The notes beneath the pieces were generated by a model. It did not search any database. It saw only the letters and a program-made list of their open reading frames with translations, and was not told the DNA's origin. A stretch of DNA of 64,000 bases from assembly GCA_002900995.3 (NCBI GenBank), contig CM035310.1, positions 395,946 to 459,945 of the forward strand, written 5' to 3'. Source of the stretch: Ganoderma boninense. Taxonomy: Eukaryota > Basidiomycota > Agaricomycetes > Polyporales > Polyporaceae. A program made the translations under genes and the position numbers. Shown here in pieces: positions 33,481 to 58,929 of the stretch. Each line of letters starts with the position of its first letter. The first letter of the stretch is position 1.

Positions 33481-36400
33481 ATGCCCAAGACGTCAAAGTA
33501 CGCGTTCAGCGCAGCCAACGGTCGGGCTGCCTCAAAGGGAATCCAGGTACGATCTCCCGACTTCCATATGGCTTCGAAAATCGCGTCCTCGCCCTGTCCT
33601 CGATGACTGACAATTTTATCGATTGCCCACTCATTATCAAGGTCCTCCATCTCTGCGACCTGGCTGTCCAGCCGACCGGGAAATAGGCGGTCATCGTTGG
33701 GCTGATGAACCCGGAGCAGCGAAGAGTGGAAGACATTGTGAATCCCCCGGCGGCGAAGATTGCCAGGCAACTCCAACCTGAAGGAGTTATTGCCGTAGTC
33801 CTGGAGGATCCGGTATGGACCAATGTATCTAGGTGCGAGTTTCCGCGCGTATCCCTTCGGTAATGAGATGTTCTTGGTAGATACATACACAAGATCGCCC
33901 TGCTCAAAAGGGGCAGGACGGCGCCGGCGGTTGGCGTCGCGCGTTTGCTTTACCCGGGCAGCGAGGATAGAATCGTGTGCTGCCATCACGGCGTTTTTCA
34001 TCCGCTGGGCGAAGGCCCTGACACCAGGGTACTCATCAGTCCAGCTGAGTCCCAAATCATCACACGAGCATTCTGCCCGTGTTGAGGAAGAATGGCGCGT
34101 ATCCGCTGCTCTCCGAGCGTGCGAGGTTAATAGCAAACTCAATGCCAGGCAGCTTACTGACCCAATCCTTCTGGTTAGGTCCTATGCACTGCCGGAGCAT
34201 CTGCCCGACAGTACGATGAGCCCTTTCCGCAGAACCATCGGACTCAGGGTGATATGCGCTCGACATGCGCAGCTCAACGCCAATAAGCTTATTCAGGTGA
34301 GCCCAGAACTGACTGGTAAACAAGACGTCTCGATCGCTCACTATCGAGCGTGGCAGGCCATGATGCTTGTAGACTTCCGAGAACATCAACTCAGCAACTT
34401 GTGGAGCCTTGTAGTCTTGACGACTCGGCACCAGGTGGACCATACCAGTGAGCAGATCGATTATCGTCGTTATCTCGTCGAACGTTCTATCTCGGTTCCG
34501 AGACTCGGGCAGAGGGCCCACGAAGTCGACACCAATCGCTTCCCAAGGTTTTGAGGGGACAGTGAGGGGGTTCAGAAGGCCGTACGGTTTCTGATTGCTT
34601 GGCTTACTTCTCTTGCAGGTCATGCACGAGTCGCAGTAGCGCTGGACGTCCGGGACCATCGACTTCCACCACATGTGGTCGCGGAGCAGGCTGAGGGTGC
34701 GGTGTGCGCCGAGGTGCGCAAGCAAAGAGTGGGTGTGTCGGATCACAAGTTCCCGAACGCTTCGTTCCGATACAAGGATGTTAGGTATGCACAGAAGCGA
34801 TCGCTTCCTGTCCTGTAGGAAGACTAACCCGTCTTTTACTACGAAGTTCTTGTAGTGCTTCGGGTTGGCGAGGATCGCAGCGAAGAACTTGTCGTCCGAA
34901 TAGCGGCCTTGAAGGGCACGAAGTAAGTCAATTCCCTCTGTATTATCAGCGAGGAACTCGATGAACTGACTCTCCTGGCCCGTCACAGGTGAAACTGGTG
35001 AGTGCTCATCAATGTCAGGCTGTTGGAGCGGTGCTGAAGACCGTTCCGCAGGCTGCACGCCCTCCCGTTGTTCAACATGGGGCCCGTGGAGGACAACGCG
35101 CTTGATGCGCTTCGCGAACTCCTTCGCCGTCTCCGGTCGACCGGTCTCAGGCGGAGGAATGGTTGGGCGCGTCCGAACAGGACGCACGGTCGCCTCGCCG
35201 GCTGTCATGGGGCCCTCTGGGGCGGAGTGAGGGTGGGACTTCTCGTGAGAGCTTCCCTGCTCTTGTAGGGAGGACTCGCCAGCTGACGCGCCCTCCAGAC
35301 CCTCCTCTCTTCCCCCCCGCGATGAGCCCGCAGTGGGGGCCTGGCGTTGTCGTCCCGGACGACTGTTCGCCGCCGTCTGAGGCACGACAACTGGCTTCGG
35401 CGGTCGAGGGTGAAGCACGCGCCCTCCAGTCACCGCAGTGGGTACAGGAGGTGAGGTGAGTTGTTCCAGCTCAACAAGTGACTCCGGGTTGACGCTAACA
35501 GGTGCAGAGATGCTGAAGCTTTGCAGGACAGCCGAGAAGTCGCCCTCCTCGTCGAACTGGGTGTACTCGGAGGGAGCCCGCACAGTGCCAGGCCGGTCAT
35601 GCGCGTAGATACGCGATAAAGCGTCAGCGAGGACATTCTCGACTCCCGGTATGTATTCAATAGTGAAGTCAAACTCGGAAATGCGCTCTAACCATCGCGC
35701 CTGGCGACCTGACAGGTTCTTCTGCTTCAAGAGGTGGATCAGACCCTTGTGGTCCGTCACCCAGGTGAACGAGCAACCCAATAGGATATCACGGTGCCTT
35801 CGCATCGATTCGATGCCTGCTAACATCTCGATCTCATGCACAGGATAATTCATCTGCGCTGAGGACAGCTTGGCCGAGAAGAATGCGGCGACCCGACCAC
35901 GGCGAAAGTCGTCGCCTTGGGTCACCACGCCGGCAATCCCACCATGGGAACCGTCAGTGACAAGCCAGATGCGTGGTGCGTCTTTCGAGTAATCCAACGG
36001 GACGCGATGGTGCTCACGGTGTGCATGCAGTAGCTTCTTGATTTCATTGAACGCATGTTGGTGAGTAAATTCCCACTTGAAGCTTGCTTCTGAGCCGGTT
36101 AACGAACTCAGAATACCCATAGGAATCCGGACGGTTGCAATATCATCTGCAAGGTAGCCCACGGATCCGAGGAACCCCCGGAGAAGCTCGCGGTTCGTGG
36201 GGATCTTCCAGCTCAAGACGTTGTCGACCTTCTCGGGGTCCATCCGGATCCCGTGGTCATCGACAATGCGCCCAAGGATCTTCATCTCGCGACAGAGGAA
36301 GCGCAGCTTCGTCGCACTCAGGTAAAGTGTTTCCTTCCGCAGAATGTCGATGACAAGTCTGACGTGCTTGAGATGCTCTTCCAGAGTGTCGGAATAGACC

Positions 36401-38695
36401 GCGATGTCATCAAGGTAGACGTCCAGAAAGACGCCAAGGTATGGCGCGAAAATATGGTTCATAAGGGTCTGGTAAGTGGCAACGGCGTTGCAGTCGCCCT
36501 GTTGCAACACCAGACTCACCATATTTCCATCAGGAGTTGTCATCGCGGTGCGAGGGACATGAGACGGCTCAACACGGATCTGTTCATAGGCATCCTTGCC
36601 GTCAATCAGCGTGCGATACGGCTTCCTGGAGACGCGCCGCAAAATGGCTTCCATGTCCGGGAGTGGAGACGTCACCTTGTGAGTGTTTGCGTTCCGCTCG
36701 CGTAAATCGCAGACGACTCGAAGCCGATGTGGTATGCCCTTAACACCTGTTCCAGGCTTCGTCAAGAGGAGCATTGGCGACGTGTTTCGAGCATTGCTCA
36801 TTTGCCAACGGCCGGACTTCAAGTAAGCATCGCGCTTCTCGATCCAAAGATGACGCAGAGCGTCCGGACACTTGGACGGCCGCCACGAGTAAGTCTTGGA
36901 CTCGTCTTTGAGCGGAATAGTATGATTGATCGTCCGCAGCGGCGGCAGCGGAGAGTCGCTCGCATCCATGCAGATCGGGGCGGCGTATTCACGCAGTTCC
37001 TGTCGCGCAGCCTCCAACCGGTCCGCGAATACTTCAGCAGCTCGAGACTCAAGAACACGAGCCTGCTTGCCCTCGACGGGCAGGGGCTTCGAGCTGCCAA
37101 CAACCACCTTCACAGGGTTAAAGCCTGCGAGCACTCGGTGCTGGAAGAAGAACGGGGTGCCGAGGATGATATCATAGTTGAGCAAGTTAATGATATCAAA
37201 ATAACGCTTTGAGCTGATGTCCTGATACTCCAGCTGTGCCGTGCAGCCATAATTGATTTTGGCGCGAGACCCCTGCACTGCAAGATGCAGCGGCATGGGC
37301 TTAGCCAGCTCAAACGTCTTGACTCCCAGTTGGTGAGCCAGCTTCGCGGACATAAAGTCGGAAAGTGAACCGGTGTCTAACAGTGCGCGGGCAGGATGCC
37401 CGTTGATCGTCACCACAACAACAATAGGCTCCGGAATGACACGGCGAAGATCGCGCGGCGCAGCGGCGTTCCGCTGCACAACTAGATCGTCAGGATCAAG
37501 CTTCGACTTTCCGCCCCGCTGAGCGGCGTTCAACTCAAGGTATGGCTTGGCTTGGGCATACCACTGCTCATCCAGATGCTGACCATATGCGATCGTCTCG
37601 AACAGGTGGTCAAGATCACCGCCGAGGTCGTCAGAGGTGCTTTCGTCGAGGGAGCCAGTTTCCAGTGCCCGATCGTGGTGCGCCCGACGCGCTGCATGTG
37701 CATACCAGTCCCGGAAGTCAAGCCGGGGATTCAGCAGCCGCTCGCACCCGATGTGAACGCTGAGTGCGAGGTACTGATCCTGAACTTCCACCACATCTCC
37801 AAGCTGGAAGCACTGAAAACGCGTTGTAGGCTCGCCCTGGGGATGTGTTTCAGGCCAAGGTATCGTCTCATTGAGACGCTGTTCCAGGACCAGGGCCATC
37901 ACATCCCCAAGTGGCTCGCTCGCGCCCTCCAGAACGTCAGGATCGCCTGGCATGCGAATCGTCCTCAGCATCTGCCGGAAGGAGTTGGGTAAGTCCAAGT
38001 TCGGATTGTTGAGCTGAGCTGCAGTGACAAAGAATTCAAGCTCACTAGCTGTGTTCTCAACAGCATAAGTGGATGCCGAAATCTGGTGCACGATGAAGAA
38101 CTCGTGCTCCTCCTCGATGCTTGCACCGTCCCAGTACGGTCGGTGGCGATTCAATACATCAGCGGTGCGCTGCTCGAACACATTTCCAAGTGCGTAGGCT
38201 TCCGCTCCCTCGGCTCTAGTGCGCGGAAGCTCAAGTTCGTCCCAGCTGAACTCCTGAACTCGAATACCGTCATCCTCAACTGGAATTGGACAACCTCCAG
38301 CTGAGGAAGTTGAGTCAGTGCGTGGCTGAGGACCAGGCTTGGGGCCAGAGACTACTGACCATGTGTCATCTGACTGTTTGTCAGGTTCCTCCGGCTCGGA
38401 GCTCGAGTCCGAGACGGACTGCAAGGACGGCATGCCCTCGAATAAGTCTTCATCGTCGGGCTCCGAAGGATCGCCGACACTGACAAACCCGGTGAGTGGA
38501 TCTGCACAAAAGCGAGGTTCAACCAGTTCCCAGGCGGGACGCAACTGAGGCAGAGACCGATAGTCGAACTCGACCGAGTTCAAGTGCAACTCGGTCGTCG
38601 CAGAGGTGGACTCGGCAAGGTAGGGTGTCAGTTGCCCGGATGCATCCGTTGGGACACAGATGTATCCGTCAAAACAACAGATGTATCTAATACAG
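33481..38695 (-). mobile_element. pol: Ty3/gypsy retrotransposon pol (protease, RT, RNase H, integrase, chromodomain), frameshifted
   Basis: One frame of about 1500 codons runs from about 38695 to 34060. In order it has an acidic N-terminal region, an aspartic protease motif (ALLDTGSLSD), reverse transcriptase with YLDDIAVYS, RNase H with TDGSHGG, an integrase zinc-binding HHCC (HTHSLLAHLG...CDSCMTC), and integrase catalytic residues in GVDFVGPL, IVSDRDVLF and DGSAERAHR. At about 34060-34090, just after FLNTGRM, the frame breaks. The reading continues in another frame with WTDEYPGVRAFAQRMK and a chromodomain-like segment (EWAIDKIVSHRGQGEDAIFE) up to about 33480. No ATG precedes the open frame, because it is fused upstream to gag in the undisturbed element. 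It is dead at the frameshift and separated from gag. Confidence 0.88.
38676..38687. repeat. 12-bp direct repeat at left border of the 17-kb insert
   Basis: AACAGATGTATC; an identical copy lies at 55905-55916 in the same orientation. It is a candidate target-site duplication, but related AGATGTATCCGT words recur several times around both borders, so chance is not excluded. Confidence 0.5.
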
Positions 38696-38939
38696 TCAGC
38701 AACATTTATGTATTAGTCGCCCGCAAAGAACTGCATCAATGGGGTTCGAACTGCTGGCCGTATGGTCAGAGGCGAAACATTGGGGTGTCGCTGACAAGCA
38801 AGCCACACGTGTTTGTTCTGACATCTACTGCTGTGCAATACATGGAGCTATTGAATTCTACTGTACATCAGCGCACTCAGCAAGAAGAGCGTCCTAGAGA
38901 GCTTGGTCAGTGCTGGATCTAATACCAGAAAAGATGGAA

Positions 38940-41900
38940 CATACCATATCAATTGCACCCGCAAATTTCAACTTGCACTGATCAATGAGGCGAATATAAC
39001 GATATGATTGTCTGCTCCCAGCCAGATACGAAGTCAGTCCACACATGAAACAAGGGCTTCAAGACCAACTATGTGTACTTACTTGAGCGCATACGCGGCC
39101 GCGCCGGCATCTGAGTCCTTCCGAGCAGTTTCCCGCCATAGGTCATGGTAGTGGTGGAAGAAGATTACTGTGCGCCGCATCTCCTCGCGCAGGAGATTGA
39201 CCTCCTCGCACCACCGAGTATGGGTTGCTTTTGATCGCGACCAGTGAACACGACGAGCTAAGCACCAATGAACTGGCTGCACTTGAGTGGAAGCCTCGCA
39301 CTCACCTTCTTCATGAAACTCCTGAAACTTCTCGTCGTCGTCGTCTGCAGACGAAGAAAAAGCGAAATTTTCCCATATCCATGACGTGGAGAGAAGGCTT
39401 TGACCTAGGGTGGAGCGATCACTGGCCATTGTGAACGGTACTACTTCGCTTGTGGTGAGTCTCTTGAACCGTGGGTGCCACTGATCCATTCCTAAAGCAA
39501 GTAGCAGTACCCGATGGCGACGATATGCCTCAGCTGCTTTGTCAGCCTCCCGCTGCGCAGTCTGGATCTTGCTCTGAGCGCGAGTTGTGTGGACCTTTCG
39601 TTGCTTGGAGTGCTTGTCGAGCTGGAGGTACCCAACACCGAGGAGTGCTGTTCTTACATCTTCGAGAGCTTGGTCCGCAGCTACAAAACGAAGGCTAAGC
39701 TCCACAGCGACGGCTTCTGCCATGCTGGGCTGTTGGAGAACATTCGTGAGATGCGCAGATGGCAAGGGGAGGGTAACTTCGGAGATCTCCAGCCAAGGCG
39801 CACTCTTCCCTCGGGTTGAACGAGCACGTGGTAAGCCATCATTGGAGTCTCCCGTATCTTTGCTTGAGTTTCGCAATGGGAAGTCGGAACCAAATGCGAT
39901 GGCCAAGGAGTCGACTGATTGTTCACTGGCCAGGTGGCAGATAGCATCGTCGATTCGCGGCGTGAGGTAAAGATCCTTTAGAACGCGCCATTGCTCAACT
40001 TCCGCAAGGAAAGTCTGACAATGACGATCCAGATCATCTCCTTTCTTGGACGCCATCTCAAGCTGGTCGAGAAGAAGCTCCCTATATGCAGAAGATTATC
40101 AGCTCAGCTCATGTTAGGCATGGATGACATAGTTACTTGCCTTTCCCGTTCAAGAGTGAGGCCCTGCTGAATGACACCCAGTAACCCTATTGCCGTGTCG
40201 CCAGAAAAAGCTCGCTCTTGGGTAATTTTTGCAAGCAGCTCCTTCCCGGTCATATCTGGTAACAGGTTATTACCACACCCGATAAACGAGCAGAATGCCG
40301 ACATACTTTTCTGCAAGTCCTTGCTGAGCTCGTACGGGCTGTCCTCTAACGCTGGCTCTTCTTCCCGATGATAAACTCTCTCCACCCACTCGTCGACCTT
40401 GCATTGCCATGCCGCGATCTTGTCTGTGTCGTCGATAGTCTCTTCAAGTGCCCTGAGGTAGTCGCGTGTTCTTTCTTCGTGATCAATAGCACGGGCGTAG
40501 CGATCTGACAGCGTAGCAGCTGGATACAAGAAGTGAGCATAACAGTAAGCTGTTAAACGTGGATCAGAAACATACGCATTGCATGTACACGACGGATATT
40601 CATGTCGCTATGGAAGTCATTGATGACATCATGCCGATGCCCTGACGACATCTCCTTCGTACGTGTCGCCAGTGCGTTGAAGACCGACCAGATGCGCTCC
40701 AAAGCCTCACCATCCGTCATGCCAACACCAGGGAGGAAGTTGTACGAGTAAGCGGTCCGGCAAGAGGCCGTGTGCGCTGGTGCATGAAATTTGCCAATGC
40801 CAGCGAGGGTGTATGGAAAGTACTTGATTTGAAAGACCGTTAGAGTTGGAAACATCTTCCTCCAATCTTTGATGCGCTGACGAAAATGGATCCGGTACTG
40901 GCAATTGATGTCATACCCATTGCAGTGCCGGCAAATCGTGACATACGGCGCAAGACCCGAACACATGCAGTAGTCGACGTAGGCAAAACTGCGGGGAATC
41001 AGCTCATAGCTATGGTACGATGTGATTTGAACTCACGCTTCCCCAGCAGGCAAATCAACCGAACCGCAAGGTAGAAGGAACATGTGGCGCGCACATGAAA
41101 GACCCACGGTACCACTAACCCGGCCGCTGAAGCGAGAGTAGCCCATCGCTCCAAATTTGTGACAGCTTGTGGGCTAGTTGACATGTAAGAACACATTTAA
41201 ATCCTAACCAGTACAGTAAAGACGGCGTACTTCTTTCTTCGGAGGCTTAACAGTCTTCACGAACATTGCGTATGGTCTCTCCTTCGTGTAGTACGCTCCT
41301 CCGTCTGTCAATGAGAAGTCGGATTCGTCCATTGGCTTCATTTTCTGGCTTGAATGGAAATTGCCGTCCACGGCGTGGAAGAAGGTGTCCAAGTATCTGA
41401 TTCGTGAGCAGACATGTGAGCACATACTATCGAGCATCAAACTCAGCAATATAAGCTCACTTTTCGTTCTCAGGACGGTTCTCCTGGTCTGTGGGGTTCA
41501 TATTCTTGTGAGGTTGAGGGCATGCGGGACATAGGACACCCAAGGACCGCTCAGGGAGGTCCTTCGTTGGGGGTACTCCAGCTCTCCGAGTTGCGTGTAA
41601 GAACATGAACTCCCGCATGGTGTTGTTGAGCTCCCGGTGACGGTTCTGTGCTCCATGAGCATTGGTGAGAAGAAGTTTCAAATTCAGAACTCACCTTGGT
41701 TTCGTCAGGAACGACATTGTCCGTACTTCTCTGCAAAAATCGCATGTAGTCGATCGCGGTAATCTGGCATTGCAGAGATAGAAGGTGATAGTCGCGGAGA
41801 CCATGGAGGGTGAAGGCAGAACGAGGGATGTCCCAGCTTCCGGGGAAAAGACCAAAACGGAGAAGCTGCGCGGTGTACGGTGCAGCCGTCTTGGTTGTCT

Positions 41901-42857
41901 CGTCTTCAGAACACACGCAAAACAGGATCTTCACCTGGGCTATACCATGTTCGTGGACTACAGTCATGGGTCGGGGATCTCGGGATTGAGTGGTGCATGG
42001 ATCTCCATTATGCCCCAAGTTGATCACGAAGTTCTTCAGCCCTCCGAGAGAACGGCGTTGCCAGAAACGCAGTGCAGGATCCCAAACCTCAATTCTATGA
42101 AACGGGTTACGAACGTGGTCACCCACGATACATTCCTCGCACACGATGGGTGCGTGGTAGCAGTCGAAGCATCGGTAAAAAGGAGGTGGGAAGTCCGTTT
42201 TGCTACACGAGCCGGGGCAGCGGCTCATAGATGGGGGCGCAGCATCTCTGGCGAGGAGTTCTTGCTGTGCGACAATAGCACACTTCAGGAACGCTTCGAG
42301 CCGGGACCCTACTGGCTGGAAGTCTTATTAGAGTGGGGAGGATATGAGGCGGGACAGACACATACAATGGTGTTATTGACCTTGGCTTTCTTCGCAGGCG
42401 GTCCACTATCCTCCAGACTGACGGACTGGCGTCTTTGGGTCTTCGATGTTGAGGGGATGGGGATGGACGACGAGACGCTTTCGCCAGCACCGCCTGCCTG
42501 GGCACGCAAGAAATTATCCAAACCGATGTTCGGGGGAAGAGGGAGGGACAGGTTGAGGCCCAGCGGCTGAGATCCAGGATACTGACGTGCAGCGGCGAAG
42601 CGGTCGATGGTAGGGAACACTGTGGACCTAGGCGCAGATGTACCACAAGGAGGTCCCAGGGGTTAATAGTTGCGAGCAGCCGCAAAAGTGTCCGGAAGGT
42701 CTTGAGCATCGTTCGGTACGGGACGCGAGGGGACAGATTCGGATCCCGGATAGTTCAGCGCAGCGGCGAAACGCCCAGGGGGATGGGAGGTAATATCATC
42801 AGGGGAAGGCATTGCGACACGTTGAGATCTCTGGATAGAGGAGGTTGGTCGATTCAA
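38940..42857 (-). CDS. KDZ-superfamily transposase with CxC2 cysteine cluster
   Basis: Multi-exon gene. From ATG 42857 the frame carries repeated FAAAxxYPGS-like units, crosses an in-frame TAA at 42665-42663, and continues in the same frame with FAAARQYPGSQPLGLN and PPAKKAKV. After an intron comes the CxC2 cluster (CPGSCSK...YRCFDCYH...VCEECIVGDH...FHRIEVW) at about 42230-42080. Later exons give YLDTFFHAVDGNFHSS and SLTDGGAYYTKE, then a frame GLSCARHMFLLPCG and VDLPAGE, then GYDINCQYRIHFRQR, IGKFHAPAHTASCR and GVGMTDGEALERIWS. The D, D and E of these blocks are the expected catalytic residues of the Kyakuja-Dileera-Zisupton fold. Coiled-coil exons (about 40529-40104 and 40056-39079) follow. 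The last exon near 39020-38940 is uncertain. The in-frame stop may be a true nonsense change or hidden by an unseen intron. Confidence 0.82.
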
Positions 42858-42859
42858 AT

Positions 42860-44400
42860 TGAGGCGTTCGAAGGTACAAGATCATGTAACATACAAGTGT
42901 GACAGTACAGACTGCAATCGCCGCTCAGGCTCCCGTCAAGACGAGATTGAATGGAAACAAGAGCTGAATGGGAACAAGAGGCAAGTGGTGGAGAAAAGGA
43001 TGGGGATGATGGGAATGCCCAGCCTGGTTCGAGGCACGAGAGGGGGACGAAGGGTCGTTCGAGGAGATGGAGGTTTGGCGAAAGGGTGCCTAGTAGTAAG
43101 AATGGGCGGGGAACGGGCCAGCGGAAAGGAAGGGACCGTGAGGAGGGCAGAGGGCATGGGGAGCGGCCAGAATTTGGAGGCCAAGTGTGGGCACCGAGAT
43201 AGCTGGACTCCGCCAGTTCTCGAGGTGCAGGACGGGATCACACTGCGGCTTTGTGGCCGGTGGATTTGTGGGATTCGGGGATGTGTGTGAATGCAGGATC
43301 AAGCCAAGCACTTACCTCCGCAGTGCTCTGGTATGACTACTACCCTCTCGTCCCAACTTTTCCAACACCCTTCCACTCCTCTCGCTCGGCTTGACCTGTT
43401 TCTGAGATGGCTTGAGGGCTGTCCCGGTGTCCACGCCGATGGTTGCTTTGAGCGGTAGAATGGATGCGATGGTCCGAGGGAGGGCCAACAGTGAGGCAAG
43501 AAGGGATGGGGAGCGAGCGCGCAGTGCGTTGGCGAGAGGCTGGGAGATGAGTAGGGGCGGCGGAACAGTCGAGCAAGGTGAGGCAAGGTCCGCTATCCAA
43601 CAGTTCCCACGCCTCACATGCACAGCCATTCCCCGACGCCCGACTGTCCGAATCTGGAAGCCGGCCCGACAGAGGAGACGCGACAGTCACGGGGAGTCAA
43701 CAACACGCGCCTGGTTTCCCACGCCTCCGTCGCGCCTCCTGTCCAACGCTCGCACAGGTCGAGTTCGACCACCTTCAGCCACCTTCTCGTTCACCTGCCT
43801 CCCATTCCACTTTCGTCGTTCCTCTGCCATCTCCACCGTCTCGTCGCGCTCTCCAGCAACTTGCACTGTCTGGGCGCATTTCGAGTAAGTACTTACGACT
43901 CTCATAGGTTTGTGGGCTAATGTCGCGATGCTGCAGGCCACGAACCCCACGAACACTAGAACCTCTCGGGCTGGAAGGCGGGTACACACCCAACTGAAGC
44001 CCCTGAGTCCAAGAACCTCCAGTGTGGAGCGCGACCGTAGTCGCGCGACCCCTGGAATCCCCCTGGATCAGCAAGCAGGTCGAGGCAAGGAGCTATCCTT
44101 CGTCTGGCGAAGTACGCAGAGCATATGAATGGTTTGCGGTCTTTATTCTGACCGTCGCCTCTGTAGTCCGGCTTGACAGCAAGTATCTGCAAGTGCAAGA
44201 GGAGACCAGTAGGATATCTCAGACGGACCAACACACCACGGTGAGCACGGGTGTTCACCAGACGATTCACGCATCCACTGATTCGCCCCCAGGCATATCA
44301 ATCATTCTCTGCCCTCTACATCTCGGCCGCCACTCCAACTTGAACGCACCTGGTATGTTAACCTGGGTGGATTGTCATGACACCGGCTGATATCCAAGCA
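42860..44400. other. Divergent intergenic region between transposase and first cargo gene
   Basis: Only short overlapping frames on both strands. A minus-strand frame starting at 43989 begins MCTRLPAREVLVFVGFVACS, somewhat leader-like, but has no further support. It probably holds the promoters of the flanking divergent genes. Confidence 0.4.
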
Positions 44401-44408
44401 TAGCTCCC

Positions 44409-46857
44409 ATGTCCTCTATCGCGACTCCTCCAATAGACGTGCCCAACATGCACTCTCCTTCCCTTTCGACCCCAAAGGTCTTGAACGATCACCTTTCCTC
44501 TCACTCCGGGGCTTCGAAGCCAGCGCAAGATGGATCTGCTGACCATCCTACACGGGCACTACATGCGAACAAGCAAGGGAACCGTGAGTCTCATTTCCTG
44601 ATATGATGCGCCAATAGCACTGACGTGATTCTAGCTCTTCTCGGGTCGCGCGACGCATTCGCGGGGATTGTCGCGGCACAAGCATACACGGCTCAGGGAT
44701 GGGACTCCGATATCGTCGTTACCAGTCCGAATGCAGATTGGATCCCGGAGTTTGCGGTTGCGCACAGTGAGATCACAACGTACTCGGATGGTCGTTGGGG
44801 GCGTCATGAGTACTCTCGGTGGCCCCAACAGTTCACGCGGGATGCCTTCCACACCCACTGCATCCCGTTCAAACCTCGTCTCAAGGGACCCGGCGAAATC
44901 CTCTGGCGCACTCTCAGCCCCGATGACTGGGAACCTGAGGACTGTGGTGTCCCTGGCATTGGGTTCCTCAATGGGCACATTCAGAACGACCTTCATCGCG
45001 GCGCTCTCGACGTCATCGCGTCCTACCAAGATTGTCACACGGACGATCGCGGATGGCGCGAGATTGGTCAATTCCTCGTCGTCTGCCTCTTAAACACCAT
45101 TGGCCGCCTGCGTTCGATCCCTGCCCTCCCCGGCGTCGTCATTTCTCTAGCCGCACATGTCCAGCGACTCACCTTGGAACTCTGGGGCCTGGTGGAATGG
45201 TTGAAGCTGGTCATGGACCGTGTCAAGGGCCAGGGGGATTTCTCCCTGCTCGTGCTTAATGTTGTTGGAGCATGGACCGGGGATCCGAGCGTTGCGCAAA
45301 TGCTCCATCGCGCAGGTATTCCTGTCTGGCTTCAACGTCAGCGGGGCACCCAGTTGCAGATCTACAAGGTGGTCTCCACGAAGGACATACCGATCGACTT
45401 CTCTCGGACGCCGTCTTATCCCCGTCTCCTCTTGGCGAAGCGCGACCTTTCAGGAGCACTGAACCTGCCGGGGGAGTGGCGAAGAGCCATGTCAGCAGTG
45501 GTGAGACGAGAGCTGTGCGAATCATGACTTCCGGAACTCTTGGAGGCTGAGCAGCATGGGCAACTGCCCCTGGCGAAACGACTTCGTGAGGGAGTCATGT
45601 GGGCTGGCTCTGATAGCTCTTCGTTGGGGGCCCCGAAACCAGTGTTCATCGTGCGGGACCAAGGCGTGAAGACGGTGAAACATAACCTCTCTCCCGCTTC
45701 CCCTCCCTCGTCGTCGCGCTCTAATTCAGGTACATACCTTATCAATGCCTCTGCAAAGAAACCCTCGCGACGAGCACAGCACCGACAAGCACGGCACCGA
45801 CAAGCAAAAGCGCAAACGGCTGATAATGCCCAGACCAAGGTTTTTGCCATCATCCCTTCCCGACAACACTACGCATCCCATCATCTCTCCATGCCATCAG
45901 CCTGGACGTCCGCATTGTCGGAGGCCAGTCCCGTCCCGCAACCATCGGTTTCTGTCAAGTACTACTTTGCTCCCCCATGGCTATTGGATGCCCTTGATGG
46001 CTTCGACGTCATGCCCGAGAAAATTGCCCGTTATCTTCACAACTGGGTACGCATCCGCACCTTCTGTCGTGTCCGCCTTTTCGATGCCACCATCGCAGGT
46101 CGTCCTCTGACGATTGCGGAGTGGCGGGATGCTCTGTGGGGCGACTACAGCATCAATGACGTGCCTGATATTGCACCGGGCACTTCCGGCGCTCGTCCGA
46201 AGCTTCGCCACGAAGTCCAGGTCAACGTCCGCCGCCTCTTTGGGCATGGTGCGGCTCTGTCGTCCTATCTCGCGGATGCCTGTCCCAAATTTGGCAACAT
46301 ACCTGTGACTCTTGACATGGCCCGCTCCGATTCGGCGTTCCGACAATCCGCGTTGTGGGATGCTCATGAAACAAATTGGCGTTGCGAGCTTCTTGCTCTG
46401 GATGCCCTCATGGTTGGGTCCAATCAGTGGTCTGCCATTAATTGCTGGACGCGCGAGTTGCTGGTGTTGCGGGTCTGGGGTTCCGGTACTTCGGGTGTTG
46501 ACGTGGTTCCTTCCACCGATGATCAGGATCAGAGGCATGTGTTCTGTTGGACGGAGCCGCCGCAGTCTGGGTGGCAGGATTGCCGTCAATATCTCAAGGC
46601 GTTTGTCGAGGTCCTTGGTCGCTGGAAGGGTGTGCCGTATCAGCTTTGCGGAGCGGATCTACGCGTTACGGAGTGTGGAGCCGACGAGTACGCCAGTATA
46701 CTTCGGGCTGCTGTTAGTTTCTACGTCCGCACATTTGTTGCCAAGTACGAACGCTTGCCAATCTCCCCGGTTAGTCTACCTTCTTTCCATGCACACCTCC
46801 TGATATTGAATATTGTTCTAGATGTCACTCCCAAGTTCCTTGCGAGCTCCGTGAGGC
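44409..46857 (+). CDS. Cargo gene 1: large agaricomycete protein of unknown function
   Basis: Exon 1 begins with MSSIATPPIDVPNMHSPSLS at 44409 and meets a GTGAGT donor near 44583. Exon 2 starts near 44635 with LLGSRDAFAGIVAAQAYTAQ. The segment SLLVLNVVGAWTGDPSVAQM then LHRAGIPVWLQRQ matches a block (host-variable VPVWLVR motif) that I recognise in a large, uncharacterised agaricomycete family. A TGA at 45525-45527 lies in the same frame as the rest. It is best explained by an in-phase intron starting GTGAGAC near 45502 and ending at one of several AGs 45-54 nt later. Downstream YYFAPPWLLDALDGFDVMPE continues, and a GTTAGT...TTCTAG intron near 46770-46820 leads to a stop near 46857. No catalytic motif is seen. 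It lies head-to-head with the transposase. Confidence 0.6.
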
Positions 46858-47048
46858 TGCCTGTCAGGAGTCAGCCCTTGCATGCCTGAATGTTGTACCG
46901 TAGCGCATTTCGTCATGTACTTTAGTGTAATTCTAGCAAGTTCTTCTGTTTTGGCCCCTGTTTGCCTTTGCAGCCCGATAGGACAGATTCATGCGTACTT
47001 CCAATCTGAGATTCCGTTGTGACAGATCCCAGGACTCATGCAGCGTTC

Positions 47049-49136
47049 ATGCCGGCTGCCCACCAGTCGCGCTCTCTCTCTCCCCAAGTCCACGGTGCAC
47101 TGACTGTCGTTCCGTACGTCTTGTGCTTTATCTATCCATGCTTTTGGAGCTAATCTGAATGTGTTCAGAATGGGCGCGATCAAGTGGCGAGCACAAGAGC
47201 TCGTCTTCCTCCAAAGTCTTGCCGACAGCCCGGATGGCAAGACCGTACTCAAGGCCTCGCAGAAAGAGAGGGGCCAGGGCCGGACTTACTGGTTTCGCAA
47301 CGCTGCTCACTTTTTTATTCAGAAGTACAGGGAGGAGTTTGGTGGCTGTTTCGAGACGGAGAGCTCGGTGGAGTTCGCCTTTCGCAAGTCGCTTCAGCCC
47401 CGGGCGCTCACCCTGACGCCTTGGCCGAAGGAGACCGAGCACGAGAGAGATGAGAGACTAGAGAAGGTCAACGCTGTACGTCGTGTCCTCCGACTTTAAG
47501 ATACTATAATTGATTCACCGCACAGTGCATCGAGAGCTGGATCAAGTCCAAGAGCGAAAGTCGCAGTCGTCGTAAGGTCGAGCCTCCCTCCGCCGAAACA
47601 AGTGTAGCGAGCGCCCATGTGGCGATCGCTCCCGTCAGCGCGCACTCGCTGTCTGCGAATCCCCCAGTCTCCCTTCCTGAGCGGGGAACGGAGGCGACAG
47701 CGATCACAAACACTCAAACCGCGAACGCATCCGTCGATGAAACTTCCCATGGACACCTTGCAACGCCGCACACGGCCATGCCTACAGATGAGTACGTCCC
47801 ACGCTTGTTCAGTGCCAACCGAGTGTGACGCTTGCTTCCAGGCAACTGCGCAAGGTTTTGCATCTCCTTCAGGAGATGCAAGTGACGCTGATGAGGGACT
47901 GTGGATGGGTCGGTTGGTTGCTCATGTCGGGATTGGATGGCGTTGGGAAGTTGGACTCCATCCAGTACGTATGCACTTGACTCGAGGCCATGGATGCAAA
48001 GCTCATTAGATATGCAGCTCTTGCACTGCCTACGACCGCGAGGGTGTCTCCTTTGAGCAGTTTCTCGCTGACCAGCTTGGGTTGACGGTCAATGGTCTTC
48101 TGATGCTGTTCGCTAACTTCGTCGGGTCGTCGTTCGGTCGTAAGTTCCCAGTCTCTTTCGCTCAGGGCAAATTTGACGTTGGCTGGCAGTACCCTCACAT
48201 GAAGTTGAAGTGAGCGCAAAGACGTCGAGTCTTCGTGCCTTGCCTGTGACGCAAACTGTCTCGAATCCGCATCCCGTTACGCCGTTATGACTGCTGCGCT
48301 CGCCGATCCTGCGCCGTCCACGCCGCCGTTTTTCCAGGCCATAACCAAGAGCCATATCGAGGCGACATGCCCTAGTACAGCCATAACCACCCCCCTTCGA
48401 TCTGTCAACGTGAACGTCGGTGTCGTTCCTTCGCCGAGCCCGGCCACAGAGGGAACTGCGGTTGGACTCTTGGTCCGACCTTCTGCGGAACGGTCCCCGC
48501 TTACCCTGCCTGCCCTCCATGACGTCATTCCCATTGCTCCGGCGGCCACTGCTGCCAGTACTCCCGGTTTCCCCTCTCAACACGAGCGCTCGCCTAGCCC
48601 TTCAGTCATGTTCGGAGCTCCTCCTCCACGGGTGCTCACCTCCCCGCCGGAGAAACCTCGTCCAAAACCCCGTAAGCCGCGTAAATCTCGCACGAGTGTG
48701 CGCGCTCGTATTCCGGCCACAACGACGAAAGCCAGGTACGCTTGGTCTTGCATTGGCTCGATCTATAGATGTCGACGTCCCAAAACTCATGCGACAATAT
48801 CAGCGTCCGCGCAGCTCAGGACACCTCAGCTTCCACGAATGAGCTCGCGCCCACAGATGCAGCATCTGATACCCCTCAGCAGGACGGCGTGGAGAAGTCG
48901 CCACTTCTTGGCCGGAGCAAGAGACAGCGTGTGTCAACGGCTCGAGCCCTGAACGAAAGCCCGTGAGTCGTGTCGTATGGATGCTGTGTCATGCATGGAG
49001 CTGACGACGGTGTAGAGACATGTGTGCAGCGGAGAAGATAAAGCGTCAGGCAGAGGCGGCAGAACTGTCAGCAGGAGCTCAGCAAGTGGTACCTTCGGTG
49101 TCGCAGGTGAAACGTAGGAGGACTGGTACAAAGTAG
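47049..49136 (+). CDS. Cargo gene 2: unknown protein with basic AT-hook-like tail
   Basis: The exon model is well supported at the 5' end: exon 1 47049-47113 (MPAAHQSRSLSPQVHGALTV), exon 2 47169-47475 (MGAIKWRAQELVFLQSLADS and onward), exon 3 from 47526 to a GTACGT donor near 47791. Further exons carry QLRKVLHLLQEMQVTLMRDC and YDREGVSFEQFLADQLGL. The last part is Pro/Ser-rich with KPRPKPRKPRKSRTSVR (AT-hook- and NLS-like), KRQR and KRRR, ending near 49136. The N-terminal WRAQ...WFRNAAHFF pattern and the later FEQFLADQLGLTV block resemble a recurrent uncharacterised agaricomycete family. The basic tail suggests nuclear location. It follows cargo gene 1 in the same orientation. Confidence 0.55.
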
Positions 49137-49514
49137 AGTGATCGAACAAGGGGCGATGAAATGTCCACGACGCCTGCCGTAGTTAGTGCTGATGGAACAA
49201 TGTGGGCCTGGTTGGGGTTACCCCGATTGCGAGATAGTTCAAACGATTCTACCGTTGACAGGCATGACCGATGGATCTTACAAGGCTAGACATCGTGACA
49301 GAGGTGAAGATGAAGATGGGGCAAGAATTCGAAAATCTTGACAATATCTGCTTCATTTTTCAGAGTCCAAAAATGTGGGCCCCTCGAAATGTGTATATAT
49401 ATCCCGAAGGTCGAAGACAGGATAGCCAGCACCTCTGTCTTCTACGGTGCCTTCCCTATCCTCTCCTCCGCCCCCATCTCATCCCGTTCTCCGCCCCCAC
49501 TCCAGCTTCTCGGG

Positions 49515-52055
49515 ATGGTCAGAAACTACCCTCGTCTCCGTGGCTTCTCGACGCCGCAGCCTTCGCGCTCTCAGTATTCTGAAGAAGTACGGAGGTTGTG
49601 CTTGACGGATGCGTGGCGCCGCAGGCCCTACGACAGCGTTGAGCTTCACAACCACCGTTGCCCGCAGTGCGGGCTTCGAGGTACCTTCACAGAACGTGTC
49701 GCGTTTCGTGAAGGGCGTGGTGGAGAGTGGTACCGAGTTGTATGTCTGTCCACTATGTCACCAGCTCCGAAGCTCATACGTTGTGCACACAGTGTAAAAC
49801 TTCTGGATGCCGCAACGTATACTTTCCACTGCAACCCGGCACACCGCCTGACCTTGCGACAGCCATCGAAAATGCTCGCCAAACCTCAGCTGGGCAGGTA
49901 CGTCTGCGTCTTCCCCGTACCACTCCATGCTTGACAACATTGCCATCTTTCCTAGGGCTCGCGACGTGTTCCACCCTCTGAGCGTCGCCGTAATGCCTCC
50001 CGGCCTTGCAGGGTACGTAAACTTACCCATCAGTCTCTGTTGACCACAAGTACTGAAGATCCTTTTTACAGAGCGCACCGCCTGGCAACTTGCGCTTTGA
50101 AGGCTTCGTGCGCAACATGTTTCCTAACTTGGATGGTGACCGTCCTCCGACCCCTGTAAGGATCACTGTCAAACAAGTCATTCACATTCGACTAACTATG
50201 TTCCTCACGTAGGGCCCATCGATGCCTGGGGCCAGCGTCTTCCGCACTGCCTCGGATCCACTCGGATCCTCTACTGCGCGTGTGCCGACGTTCGATACGT
50301 CTACCCCGACAGCCGTTCGCGTCGGTCGTGCCTCCTTGGATAGCATGGAGAGGTCGATCCCGGGTTTGGAACCTGTTGCCTCAAGCTCGCCCGAACAACT
50401 TGTGCATGACGAGGCACTTGCACGCGCCTTACAGGCGTTCTTCGATGATGAGGCAAGTAGTCGTGCTATGAAACCACCGTGGCATGATACTAACCATGTT
50501 CTAGGGTTCTTTAATCAAGAAGCGGCGTCGTGACACACCCTCATCGAGCTCGCAAGCTGGAACCTCGCAAGCTGTAAGTCTCAGTGCTGCTCTATATATT
50601 CTTGAAGTTGATCACATAGTCGTATCGCTCAGACGAACGAAGTGCCACTAAAGAGACAGCGTCGCTTTCAAGAACTCGCACAAGTAAGTTGCACAGCCAG
50701 ACCTGACAAGCACATCATTTGACACCTGTTCTGCTGCAGGAGTTCCTTGCGCTCACGCGTGAGATGGGAGTCCTCGGTGATCTTGGGTCTCAACATGCTC
50801 AGCTCCCAATGGATACGGCTTCATTGCCCCTGAACGACATGGAGGGTGATCGCGAGTCGTCAGAGTCCACGATCTCATTGACTCCCACCCCTGCGCCACG
50901 CAAACGGACTATCAAACCGTATATCGTAAGTCTGACACGCTCGTATGCACTGCCGTCTCCTCATTCCCATCATTGTAGCCCCCACGTGTGCCGACATCTT
51001 CCCTAGCACCGTTGAAGTCGGCCTCCCTTTCGAGCACTACAGGTCGCATCACAGCAGAACGCGATGTGATAGAGATCAGCTCTGATAGCTCAGGCGATGA
51101 AGATGACGGAACCACCTCGTCCAGGTCCCAGTCTCGCCGATCCAGCATCATCTCCCTCACCGACTCTGAGGAAGATGATCCTCCTCGTAGGCCATTCATG
51201 CGTAAAGTCGCTCGCACTCGTACACCCTCCGACGTCATCGACATATCCGACTCGCAGGAGAGAGGCATGGAGGACAATGCCACCAACGAAAACGCTACTG
51301 TCGCCGGCATCGACGTGTCTACGCTTACTCGGACTCATCCAGGCCTTGTCGCCTCACGATCTGCGACTTGCCTCACTGATCTCATCGCCTCTGAGTCGTC
51401 GATCAGCACCACCGCAGACCTTTTCGCCGAAGGGGTGCAAGACGACGACCCATACATTTCGCGCTGCCTTCCTCGTAATTCCGAGTCGATTGCCAACCCC
51501 CCGAGAGCCTGTGCCACCGCCGCGCATGACGCAGGTGAAGACGAAGAGTTCATTCCGTTCGGTGATCCGTACCGGTTCGAGATATATCCGTCCGTCGCGA
51601 ACCTTGCCGATGGGCCCCTCCCTGTCTTCAACCAGGCAACACAATGGATATTGACGGTCAAGATCTGGTATGATGTGAGTAATCTCGGTCTCTGCGCAAT
51701 GATTATCACTCATCCTTGCTTGTAGGACGACACGCCCCCGGCCACCAAGATGATCACGCTCGATCAACCACGTTGCGAGGTTATCTTAGCTCGATATCAT
51801 ATCGTCCGGCGCATCTTCGACTACCGCCAGATTTATGAGTTCCGTGTCTGGAATACCTCGATGACGGACTGGCGTCCTCATGCGCTCACGATGGCGCTTG
51901 AGGTTTCCACTGATCCTGGTCAACACACGCTGCTTGTCCGGCTCCCGAGCGTTGACCGGCTGACTGCATGGTCTGAGAATGTTGGCCATGCGTATGGTCT
52001 GTGTACCACAGTCGAGCGGCCGCTTCGCAAAGGCAAGGAGCGCGAATCCACCTGA
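49515..52055 (+). CDS. Cargo gene 3: unknown protein with cysteine pairs and three SUMO-interaction-like motifs
   Basis: Begins MVRNYPRLRGFSTPQPSRSQ. Cysteine pairs CPQC (near 49660), CPLC (near 49750) and CTQC (near 49790) occur within about 140 bp but in three different frames. They could be one zinc ribbon if small introns or indels are allowed. Later short exons read PGNLRFEGFVRNMFPNLDGD, then LVHDEALARALQAFFDDEAS and EFLALTREMGVLGDL. A long exon (50980-51674) has VIEISSDSSGDEDD, IISLTDSEEDD and VIDISDSQE (51066-51260), each a hydrophobic core followed by Ser and acidic residues as in SUMO-interacting motifs. The C-terminal domain (ITLDQPRCEVILARYHIV, YEFRVWNTSMTDWRPHAL) matches a recurrent agaricomycete family of unknown role. 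It is convergent with the dioxygenase gene. Confidence 0.6.
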
Positions 52056-52251
52056 CAGCTTACACTACTCGCTCCTGGCCCATCTTGGGGCTGTAATCTT
52101 CTCTCCTATTTCCGTTCATGGTCAAAAGTAGTCACTCCACGCTCTTTCAGGGCTTTAAAAGATTGTAGTGTCGATGTATGTCTTTCTCTTTACGCAATCA
52201 ATCCCCACTCAACCGCCTGACAGTACTGCCCGAGAGAATTGCTAGTGTCAT

Positions 52252-54246
52252 CTACGCCGACTTTGGTTTCAACTCGGACCACTTGCTAAATAACCCAACA
52301 CCTCGCGCCCACCGCTCCTTCGAAGTCTGCTTGAACACGCCGCCTGATGCCTTGAAGTTCTTCTGGGTCTGGTGACCGCACTCGACCCATCGGAAGAGCC
52401 CGCCCGCGGAATACTGAATGAGTGCATAGCGACGCTCATCTTTACCTGCGAGGGGGACGTTGGAATGGCAGAGAATGGCGGAGGGGATCAGGATTGTGGA
52501 ACCCGGAGGGAACTCAATGGCGAGCTTGAGGTCCCAGAGTATAAGGTGGCCGCCCTTGGTCGGGTCGTAGTTCCCGAACGCGGTGATGGCGCACCAACCA
52601 GGGGCAAAGTTGAGGTGATCTGTGTGGACATGGGCCACGGCTTGTGGTCCAAGGTTGCACGTTGCGCAGGCGAAAACGTTGTTCTCGAAGTTCCGCGACA
52701 GAGTGGGGTCCTTGTCACAAAGGGCATCCAATGTATCACCATAGAACTTATGCAGCTTCGGTGCAAAGAGGCGCATGCTTGCTGCTTAGGGTTTAGCATG
52801 AGATTGAGCCAGGGAAGGAGCGGCGACTTACTGTTTGCGAAGTTAGCGACCCGCCTCATAGGCGTGGAATGAAGTGCGGCATTGAGGACGCCCGCGTTGT
52901 ACTCGGTATGGGCTAGATTTCCAACGCGCTTGAACGGCAGACATCACTAACGTCGCCCCCGTAAAACAGACTGTGGCACATACCTGCTGCCCTCCACCAA
53001 ATGAGATACCGACAGCCACTGCTGGGAAGTTTCCGCGCCGATGGTCAACTTAAGACTTGTTCAGATGCAAGTTGTCGCGGAGGTACTCGAAGATCGCACA
53101 CATTCGGCGCTGAACCTCGCTCCAGGGAACTTCACCTTGCCCAGGAGACTTATCAAAAGGCCGACCGCCTAGGACGGTGAAAACATGATCGTTCCTATCC
53201 AAGACGGGGCGTGCATCGCTAACGGCTCAATGGTTAACAGGCTTTCAGTGCCACGACAAAGTGCCCAGGAACACATACATGCCATTCCACTTGACTATGT
53301 CAATGCCCTGCTCGTGCAGCTTCTCGAGAGGTGTTGGTTCGCAATCAGCTGCTGTTTGTTTATACAGCCGTCCTTGGAATGCGGTGCTTGATACGCGCGT
53401 ATCTTCCATCTCCAAGGAGTAGTCGGTCACGATAGGTTCTGATGCGGCGGCGGCATTGGCAGTGGCCGCGAGGTCGTCATCAATCAGCATCGCCGCAGTG
53501 TCCTCGCGACTTTCAAGCGCGGTGGTCGTCTCTGCAGAGGTACGGAGGGGGTCGGCGGCATCGCGATGGCGAATAGCCGAGGGCTTCAGCGGTGGCCTCA
53601 TGCTGGCAGACGTCCCCGGCAGAGTTGCGGCAGCAGCACGGCGCCGTTTTTTCGCGTGTTCTCTTGCTTGGAACTTGTGTTTGGAGAGGCTTTCGGGTGT
53701 TGTTGGCGGGTCGTCGAAGATGGGTAGTGGCGGAATCACTACGCGCTCCTCGGGTTGAGGGTCTCCAGGTGTCATGAAGGCATCCGATCTGAACGTCGCG
53801 AGCAGCGGGTCATCTACATCTGCCGGATCGGGCGACACAGCGGAAGCGGCTTGGTCTTCAATGGCGGCATTGACACGCTCGGCGAGATCGAACTCTGGCG
53901 GGGCATAGATGGGAAGGCCGAGGTTTGTGATCCACGGCGAAAATCCGCCGCCGCTGCGTGTCTTCCGGCACACAGTGTGAGGCCAATAGGTTTATGAGAA
54001 ATGGGTGACGATCTTGCTTACCTTACGCAGGGAAAATTTGGCGATGGCGGAACGAACTGAGGGCGCGAGGAGACCGGCGGTTTTCGCTTGGAATGTGTGG
54101 ATAGTCAGTAAGAGATAACTGTGCACCCATCGTGATTGTCTCCGCGAAGGCTACGTCGGAGAAGGACGGGAAGCGAAGGGGCTTGCACACACTCACTTCC
54201 CTTCGCAGCCTCCGCAGAGCAATCATCACTCACCTTTGCGACCCAT
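52252..54246 (-). CDS. TET/JBP-family 2OG-Fe(II) dioxygenase, one in-frame stop
   Basis: Exons fit the fungal TET/JBP pattern: exon 1 MGRK (54246-54234), exon 2 AKTAGLLAPSVRSAIAKFSL, exon 3 TRSGGGFSPWITNLG to KWNG (about 53955-53275), exon 4 from DARPVLDRNDHVFTVLGGRP, then HRRGNFPAVAVGISFGGGQQ, RVGNLAHTEYNAGVLNAALH and the catalytic exon from 52776. The Fe(II) ligands HVHTDHLN and SAILCHSNVPL, the 2OG-binding arginine region DERRYALIQYSAGGLFRWV and GGHLILWDLKLAIEFPPGST are all present. Such enzymes oxidise methyl groups of DNA bases in the nucleus. A TAA at 53052-53050 (after LHLNKS, before VDHRRGN) lies in frame between two well-aligned blocks; no intron hides it. One base change would make it, so this copy may be dead, or the base call may be wrong. 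Confidence 0.85.
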
Positions 54247-54249
54247 TGT

Positions 54250-55375
54250 GCCCAAAAGGCTGGCGCAGATGACTCGAATGGGGATCGGCGTGCGCGCAGG
54301 AGTTGAATCAGTTGAACGAAGGCGTAAAGGACGACACAAGTGCGAGGGAAGGGGCGTGATGGAATGCCGGGGGGGTGTACCCAGGAGACAGTGTGCCGCC
54401 AGGGAGAGCGGAGTTTTCCCTCGACGTCGGAGGGTCTGGGGGTGGGCTAACTTTGAGACGAGAACGGCAACAAGTGAAAGAGAAGATCAGAAGGCGTCGT
54501 CCTAGACAGCTCGTCCAAGACAAAAGTGAGTGTGCCGATCACGGATATAGAATGAGGGGGATACATGTGGGGCGAAGGAGTCTCTGCAATGGCTTGGTGT
54601 GAAGTGATCGCCTGTCAGAGTGTCGAATGGAGGAGGGACCCTGTCTAGGATCATGCCGTTGTCGAGTGTCTGTTCTATACGGCGCGGAGCGCACAAAAAA
54701 ATTCTGGATGGGATGGACAGTTCCATTAAGAGGGAAATGTAGATTTTCCGAGCGGGAACGCCATGTTCGTAACAGCTTGCTGGTTCTAATGCAGGTAATG
54801 GTGCCTGTTTGAATCCAGGCGGTCCGCTGGGCATTGAGAGCAGCCCTGAGGTCCCTCATGACGTCACCATACCGTATCAGGCTGTTCTGAATGGCGGACC
54901 TTCGAACTCACCTTAGTCTGGCGAAGACTTTGAGCCCAGGCCTCAACCCCGCACCATGCCGACACTCGCACATGTAATATTTCCGGCCCTCGCCCCAAGG
55001 CCCGCCAACTAGACAGCGAACGCTAGAGGACTACTGGACGGTGATCCCACCGTGCTATAAACGCTGGACCGCCCTGTCGTACTGCGCGAAGCTGTGCATG
55101 AAGGGGACACTGGCGCGGAAGCACGGCTGCGCGAGGGACATTGGTTCCTAGAACCTAGAACAGCACCCAGGACTGGACATCGAGCACGAACAGCTGGCTG
55201 TGCCATGTTCGCCGGCATTGGCGCCGTCCTTGGAGGTTCTTGGATTGCTGGTGGCGCACTGGTGGGGTACCAGCATGTGGTGCTTGCTTCGCAGTGGGCG
55301 TCCATCAGTACCTGCCCGATTGTTGACGAGCCGTCTTCTCCAGGTGTTCCTCCGAGTCGTGTCGGCGCTCCGCCT
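54250..55375. other. No recognised gene upstream of the dioxygenase
   Basis: Contains the presumed promoter of the dioxygenase gene and short overlapping frames with no motif. Confidence 0.4.
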
Positions 55376-55540
55376 CCGCGGGTACTGGCACGCTTCAAGA
55401 TCTTCGTCGACGGCGGTGTGCGCCACGCGAGCGACCTTCTCAAGGCGATCACGGTTGGCGCGACTGCGGTGGGCGTGGGCCGGTCGTTCCTCTTGGCGTC
55501 CTGCGCGTACGGGTGGGAGGGCATCGAGGAGGCTATCTAG
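55376..55540 (+). pseudogene. C-terminal fragment of an FMN-dependent alpha-hydroxyacid dehydrogenase
   Basis: The frame reads RFKIFVDGGVRHASDLLKAI then TVGATAVGVGRSFLLASCAY and GWEGIEEAI before a stop at 55540. This is the last part of the TIM-barrel of the lactate dehydrogenase (cytochrome b2)/glycolate oxidase family: the FMN phosphate-binding VDGGVRxxxDxLKA and GRxFL segments are clear. No active-site histidine region (SNHGGRQ) or other upstream domain is present. Only about 50 codons of a normally 350-500 residue protein remain, so this is a captured or decayed fragment, not a working gene. Confidence 0.7.
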
Positions 55541-55782
55541 ATATCGATGTTCCACTCCGCGAGTAAGAGTTATAGCATTTTGGGGGAAGGGAAGGCGCTG
55601 AAGGGGAATGGTAGGATGAATTCGAGATGAACATGCATTCGCTGGATGCGAAGGCAATCAAAGATGTCATGCCTGCTCTCCAAATTAATGGCTAGCACAC
55701 CTGTTGCTACCTCGCCTCGCTACGTGTGTGCTAAACGTCTGAGTACTATGTGTGTGTACATAGCATTCCCATTAATCTTGTA

Positions 55783-55868
55783 ACTGGGTTGGCGCAGCGG
55801 TAGGACCACTCCTTTGAACGGCCTTGAAGTTGCTGGTGATGCGGGTTCGAACCCCGCTAATTGTGCCA
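55783..55868 (+). tRNA. tRNA-like sequence, probably a tRNA pseudogene
   Basis: It has an A-box-like TGGCGCAGCGG, a perfect T arm (GCGGG-TTCGAAC-CCCGC), a following CCA and a short T-run. The acceptor stem (ACTGGGT against TAATTGT) and D stem do not pair well, and the anticodon stem has mismatches. An anticodon-loop-like TTTGAAC is present, so the amino acid cannot be assigned. A decayed tRNA or the head of a tRNA-derived SINE both fit. It sits about 37 bp inside the right border of the 17-kb insert. Confidence 0.4.
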
Positions 55869-55904
55869 AATTTTAGTCTTGCGCGCTTCATCCTGCCAAG
55901 GCCG

Positions 55905-55916
55905 AACAGATGTATC
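55905..55916. repeat. 12-bp direct repeat at right border of the 17-kb insert
   Basis: AACAGATGTATC, identical to 38676-38687. It lies just beyond the stop codon of gag. Confidence 0.5.
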
Positions 55917-55923
55917 CGTGGAT

Positions 55924-58791: not shown

Positions 58792-58861
58792 GTTTTCGGG
58801 TTTCTTGATTTTCGGAAGGGAGAGCCGCAGAGAGAGAGAAGCGAGAGAGATGGAGAGAGTC

Positions 58862-58867
<6 letters not shown>

Positions 58868-58924
<57 letters not shown>
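58868..58924. repeat. GA microsatellite
   Basis: An uninterrupted (AG)n run of about 55 bp, with further GAGAGA-rich sequence on its left, lies between the gag start and the LTR-like region in the retroelement leader. Confidence 0.95.

Positions 58925-58929
<5 letters not shown>

Follow-up and report, generated by a model that had tools for sequence, protein, structure and literature searches.

We found that a 17,381-bp KDZ DNA transposon, defined to the base at both ends, lies inside the gag-pol frame of a gypsy retrotransposon in Ganoderma boninense and appears to have gained a gene for a TET-like dioxygenase. We consider this the best overall explanation of the locus, at a probability of about 0.75. 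The window, by which we mean the whole 64,000-nucleotide stretch that was analyzed (C7:395946–459945), belongs to a genome of 55.57 Mb in 74 contigs. It also holds a tandem duplication at 12633–15572 (spacing about 1.58 kb, partly 100% identical) and nested inverted repeats at 16374–18439 (arms up to 119 nt at 92%), and a further KDZ locus (C7:389272–390098) lies about 6 kb to the left of its start.

The transposon interrupts a single gypsy copy

The element (38620–56000) reads 5'-GTAGGGTGTCAGTT ... AACTGACTCTGCTC-3', with GTAGGGTGTCAGTT starting at 38620 and AACTGACTCTGCTC ending at 56000, and is flanked by two copies of the 7-bp target-site duplication CGGCAAG (38613–38619 and 56001–56007). 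When the genome was searched with a query spanning the left junction, its gypsy half and its element half matched separate places with the same breakpoint; a right-junction query likewise gave separate gypsy and element matches. The left terminus occurs exactly at 8 genome places (reversed control pattern, 2) and the right terminus at 12 (reversed control pattern, 0). Three further complete elements share these termini, and each has its own 7-bp duplication: C9:3267125–3284771 (17,647 bp, CTCTGTC), C3:771743–788029 (16,287 bp, CCGCTGG), and C8:244435–250885 (6451 bp, CCTTCCC), the duplications of C3 and C8 being judged by eye from the flank sequence. All four complete elements have GTAGGG..GCTC termini. 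For the window taken by itself, a duplication of 9 bp would fit as well, a reading that we rejected because the length is exactly 7 bp in C3, C8, and C9. The first-pass annotation had placed the ends at 38688 and 55904, short of the true ends on both sides; its expectation that the whole mobile unit could be defined, partly through a search for other copies, is borne out by the base-exact ends, the duplication, the empty site described below, and the relatives with duplications of their own.

On the minus strand, the pol part of the interrupted gypsy copy covers 34060–38619, and its gag part with an upstream stretch covers 56008–59404. Pfam matches across pol (34060–38712, minus) and gag (55924–58263, minus) comprise RVT_1, RNase H, integrase zinc-binding, protease, and zinc-knuckle domains, together with a Retrotrans_gag match below the Pfam cut-off. 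A gypsy copy on C4 runs unbroken across the insertion site, at 99.2% identity along its pol side and 98.2% along its gag side, and the window flanks joined with one copy of the duplication match it at 100% over 123 bp; four other empty gypsy copies match the joined flanks at 78 to 89%. Since nothing interrupts C4 at this point, gag and pol are parts of a single gypsy copy, which rules out the alternative, named in the first-pass annotation as fatal to nesting, that they come from two different copies. The five empty copies, which that annotation had suggested looking for, uphold its proposal of a transposon nested in a retroelement. It had also placed the insert cleanly between the gag and pol genes, and here the result differs: in C4, one open frame of at least 2507 codons spans gag, pol, and the insertion site, so that the insert interrupts a gag-pol frame. 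Alignment of the window with C4 shows 37 substitutions over 4650 bases of the pol side and 16 over 3366 bases of the gag side (with 45 gap columns), a divergence so low that the insertion appears to be young. A comparison of 30001–35000 with 57501–62000 revealed no pair of LTRs belonging to this gypsy copy in the window.

An assembly artefact that joined unrelated sequence would be an extremely improbable source of this structure. The region is rich in repeats, and a left element end at C72:6291 and a lone right end at C5:4025567 have the same 7-nt flank, GGTGGTG, so that these two ends are perhaps one insertion split in the assembly. Against an artefact in the window stand the perfect 7-bp duplication, the exact termini in common with three other complete elements, and a stretch of about 12 kb in which the gene order equals that of C9.

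GGATRYATCC-type motifs occur near both ends at a spacing of about 20 to 22 bp, on the left within 38638–38667 (at 38638 and 38659) and on the right within 55909–55981 (at 55909, 55931, 55952, and 55973). These two terminal stretches hold 6 of the 7 such sites in the 64-kb window (the seventh is at 51581), and we regard the arrays as putative transposase binding sites.

A conserved core of genes in the transposon lineage

The transposase gene, which contains introns, occupies 39079–42812 on the minus strand, with an upstream candidate ATG at 42810–42812; its extent draws on Pfam and on comparison with C8, C72, C9, and C5. Profile searches confirmed a CxC2-KDZ transposase in the insert, with the KDZ domain (PF18758) at 1.3e-29 and 103.9 bits (cut-off 26.6) over 40553–41032 minus and the CxC2 domain (PF18803) at 1.2e-26 over 41551–42324 minus. 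The KDZ genes most like it are those of C8 and C72 (95%), followed by five at 83, 82, 77, 61, and 60%.

Divergent from the transposase is a large conserved gene, ORF2 (44607–46886, plus), whose exon at 45528–46886 has 26 genome matches that form 24 clustered loci, window included. Among the KDZ matches listed, 16 of these 24 loci lie within 10 kb of a KDZ gene, 11 of them divergent at 4.1 to 5.5 kb and 5 in tandem; a random place has a 3.6% chance of lying so close, given at least 100 clustered KDZ loci. The dN/dS of ORF2 relative to C9 is 0.18, and its nearest database neighbors are an unnamed protein and then a Ganoderma leucocontextum protein (66%). ORF2 (P0122) has no Pfam match, and its predicted model, of modest confidence (mean pLDDT 67.7, with 34 of 76 relatives aligned), gave no fold match at E 0.001 in the PDB or among viral models. 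The low dN/dS nevertheless marks ORF2 as a real protein. Distant relatives of ORF2 (26–32%) at C5:1973638, C8:1109570, C15:24920, and C12:460788 lie in tandem 1.7 to 1.9 kb 5' of a KDZ gene, the slot that CcTET-like genes occupy elsewhere.

Next on the plus strand are gene 3 (47104–49978), a set of open stretches partly kept in the C9 element, and the two-exon gene 4 (50979–52052). The last exon of gene 4 is found at six loci, all in this lineage (the window, C3, C9, C5, and two on C1), and each of the five KDZ genes at 83 to 60% lies 10 to 13 kb from such a match. The C9 element has the same order as the window, namely transposase, ORF2, pieces of gene 3, and gene 4; for C3, C5, and C1, the order was deduced from match positions. 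The core of the lineage comprises the transposase, ORF2, and gene 4, which keep this collinear arrangement at five further loci. The first-pass annotation's concern that the intervening genes might occur at unrelated single loci is answered by this recurrence of their order next to KDZ genes. The C8 element retains the transposase along with the start of the ORF2 region and lacks the counterpart of window 44796–55905; C72 is 99.4% identical to C8 over 4.5 kb, and C5 has only 194 bp of element end in common with C8. We searched for the right-hand end of the C5 relative and did not locate it.

A divergent TET-like dioxygenase

The dioxygenase gene lies on the minus strand at 52252–54246, with exons at 53964–53279, 53218–52984, 52928–52832, and 52781–52252 and a 5' part outside this model. 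The HxD motif, the distal His, and the 2-oxoglutarate-binding Arg are all in the window (codons H 52624–52626, D 52618–52620, H 52465–52467, and R 52429–52431) and are invariant or nearly so in the alignment of relatives. Its nearest named database proteins belong to Polyporales, with those of Trametes at the top (48–50% identity), and a Ganoderma sinense protein is 72% identical over 56% of the query. Modeled for a relative from Trametes, the structure comes closest to CcTet, NgTET, and TET2, with a TET-type double-stranded β-helix as its fold. These three were clearly ahead in structure-comparison Z of prolyl hydroxylases and AlkB, which we rejected as closest kin; the database names of the relatives include both "2OGFeDO JBP1/TET oxygenase" and "Prolyl 4-hydroxylase."

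The Tet_JBP profile (PF12851) did not match the window protein at E 10 in the search that the first-pass annotation had proposed. It is matched by 23 of 39 relatives at E up to 10 (best 9.5e-7), and a precomputed match exists for 1 of 120 among the relatives listed. Because the window type scores below standard profile thresholds, it has probably been undercounted. Three TET types have been named, PU, AG, and PE (PMC12730594). The HxE hallmark of the PE type is absent, as the window has HTD, with D in at least 90% of the relatives' alignment. The AG type (CcTET-like) does not fit either. No PDB entry was matched by sequence or profile, and there is no sequence match to CcTet of Coprinopsis cinerea (PDB 7vpn, 7w5p, 8jkk), whereas a PF12851 gene of the same genome matches CcTet at 4.9e-19. 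At the positions of CcTet Gly331 and Asp337, the window type has Asn and Cys.

In TET2, an Asn stands five residues after the first iron-binding His, as it does in the window type. Human TET2 and NgTET have the same fold at 13 to 17% identity in structure alignments, in hosts and contexts different from those of the window dioxygenase. On the strength of these comparisons and the model, we assign the protein to a divergent TET-like type that is distinct from the CcTET-like genes of the genome. The original description of a TET/JBP dioxygenase with all metal and cosubstrate residues therefore holds for the fold and for the H/D/H/R residues; it fails in that the protein has no Tet_JBP score, is not CcTET-like, and has a stop upstream of those residues.

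Origin of the dioxygenase gene

The two dioxygenase types differ in their relation to KDZ genes. Among the KDZ matches listed, 27 of 29 PF12851 loci have a KDZ gene within 10 kb: 24 stand in tandem 5' of that gene, in most cases about 2 kb away, and the remaining 3 converge with it. Three PF12851 hits below threshold (C1:648748, C12:455783, and C12:2270750), all of them in convergent orientation to a KDZ gene, look like a third dioxygenase type. The window type has 29 genome matches that form 24 loci, of which 8 lie within 10 kb of a listed KDZ match. Seven of these are divergent at 3.0 to 3.2 kb; the eighth (C8:268226) was scored as convergent to a nearer KDZ fragment and is 3.4 kb divergent from the KDZ gene at C8:272146. 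The other 16, the window copy included, have no KDZ gene within 10 kb among the matches listed, the window dioxygenase being 10.9 kb from its own KDZ domain; likewise, the five genes most closely related to it (three on C13, one on C20, and C1:4213469; 80–86% in the last exon) are more than 10 kb from any listed KDZ match. Seven of the 8 loci have neighboring KDZ genes that are only 26 to 29% like that of the window; the eighth was absent from this comparison.

Within the transposon's own lineage, the dioxygenase was not found at E 0.001 in the whole C9 and C8 elements, in C72, or in the covered right-hand stretches of C3 and C5, and none of the genome-wide matches falls inside the two C1 relatives. 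The gene would thus be confined to this member as far as the relatives were covered, and the idea of a dioxygenase common to the mobile unit is not sustained. The simplest reading is that the dioxygenase moved from one KDZ lineage into another, as we infer from these distributions.

Three other accounts have to be weighed. An ancestral gene that the lineage always had and that its other members lost would explain why the window gene and its relatives show saturated dS, a sign that the gene was not copied from them recently (so that a recent origin from C13 or C20 is also ruled out), and internal deletions do occur in C8 and C72. The searches above found no remnant, however, and we regard this account as improbable. 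Very improbable, in our judgment, is a nested origin, in which the dioxygenase arrived as part of another mobile element that landed in the transposon. The obvious candidate is the segment of about 5 kb at 97% identity shared by C13:367000–374000 and C20 around a window-type gene, but homology between these segments and the window is limited to the dioxygenase gene. We could delimit no mobile unit around the C13 and C20 genes, and an unsystematic look noticed no second pair of ends or second duplication in the window.

The gene may instead be a passive passenger of no benefit to the element, captured like the fragment of an FMN-dependent dehydrogenase gene that adjoins it (55353–55680, plus; PF01070 at 3.2e-13), which has about 78% DNA identity to C1:2763522–2763719. 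This neighbor, the restriction of the dioxygenase to one lineage member, and the stop that it now contains all favor such an account. We nevertheless consider it unlikely: the catalytic last exon is strongly conserved relative to its relatives (dN 0.09–0.11 against saturated dS), and genes of this enzyme type lie divergent from the KDZ genes of another lineage at a constant distance.

We therefore favor acquisition by the transposon, in the following form. A KDZ transposon inserted into the gypsy gag-pol frame through a 7-bp staggered cut; it presumably moved by cut and paste, with its CxC2-KDZ transposase recognizing the subterminal GGATRYATCC arrays. It belongs to a lineage that carries the conserved divergent ORF2 and gene 4, and the window copy or an ancestor would have gained, presumably by transfer, a TET-like gene of the type that elsewhere stands divergent from the KDZ genes of another lineage, roughly 3 kb away.

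The window copy is probably no longer active

The first-pass annotation described a complete-looking block, and in this respect it has to be corrected, as the block is not intact. The transposase has an in-frame TAA at 42663–42665 in its N-terminal exon, where C8 and C72 are open, and the dioxygenase has one at 53050–53052, where four relatives (C13 three times and C20) are open and downstream of which the catalytic residues lie. In the alignments, both stops are substitutions rather than indels, which makes a simple sequencing error less likely. With one stop in each gene, the window copy is probably dead, unable to move or act by itself. One of the C13 dioxygenase copies also has a frame break further upstream. 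Given a dN/dS of 0.06 to 0.07 for the KDZ exon and of 0.05 to 0.10 among the dioxygenase relatives, both genes were under strong purifying selection before the stops arose.

CpG transitions in young transposon copies

Between the window and C4 gypsy copies (33968–38619 plus 56008–59404), 33 of 47 transitions, and 33 of all 53 substitutions, are CpG transitions (null 0.30, p 2e-8). The KDZ copies C8 and C72 gave a similar picture, with CpG transitions making up 17 of 21 transitions and 17 of 23 substitutions (null 0.27, p 4e-7). Split by side, the gypsy transitions in CpG number 26 of 33 for pol and 7 of 14 for gag (p 0.098); for the C13c/C20 dioxygenase segments, the count is 14 of 27 (p 0.017). 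The CpG observed/expected ratio in the window is near 1 (0.90–1.12), and the effect is therefore recent or weak. The excess is likely a footprint of CpG methylation in transposons, and 5-methylcytosine probably exists as a substrate in this fungus. We give an even chance to the proposal that the dioxygenase oxidized 5-methylcytosine on transposon DNA and so weakened silencing by methylation.

Discussion

Complete TET+ transposons, including Kyakuja elements with 7-bp duplications and CA..TG ends, have been defined in Agaricomycotina, and Zisupton elements make 8-bp duplications (Kojima 2025, PMC12730594). Like TET+ Kyakuja, the window element combines a KDZ transposase and a TET/JBP-type dioxygenase in one DNA transposon, and a 7-bp duplication is also found in the window, C3, C8, and C9, which separates these elements from Zisupton of the same KDZ superfamily. 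The window element differs from TET+ Kyakuja in its GTAGGG..GCTC termini with short, imperfect inverted TCAGTT ends, in a dioxygenase that stands at the far end and is not of the CcTET-like AG type, and in a lineage with extra conserved genes and a length of 16 to 18 kb. At what was mostly the level of titles and abstracts, we found no published description of the window dioxygenase type or of KDZ elements with ORF2 in the KDZ, Zisupton, Kyakuja, and TET literature. From those sources, TET-carrying KDZ transposons as such are already in print (PMC12730594), and the hybrid make-up and the dioxygenase type look new.

Taken together, the data suggest that KDZ transposons within a single fungal genome have TET-like enzymes of two different types as partners. 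We tentatively propose, at somewhat less than even odds, a further transposon-borne TET-like type outside AG and PE, with a TET2-like Asn for the CcTet Gly/Asp, that regularly accompanies one KDZ lineage, was transferred to a second one, made up of 16- to 18-kb KDZ elements, and countered CpG methylation there. What had been a gene neighborhood becomes a defined mobile unit with base-exact ends, in which the set kept by the lineage (transposase, ORF2, and gene 4) is separated from the acquisitions of one copy (the dioxygenase and the dehydrogenase fragment). With CpG transitions in excess between young copies of both gypsy and KDZ elements, this fungus offers a way to test the counter-silencing idea.
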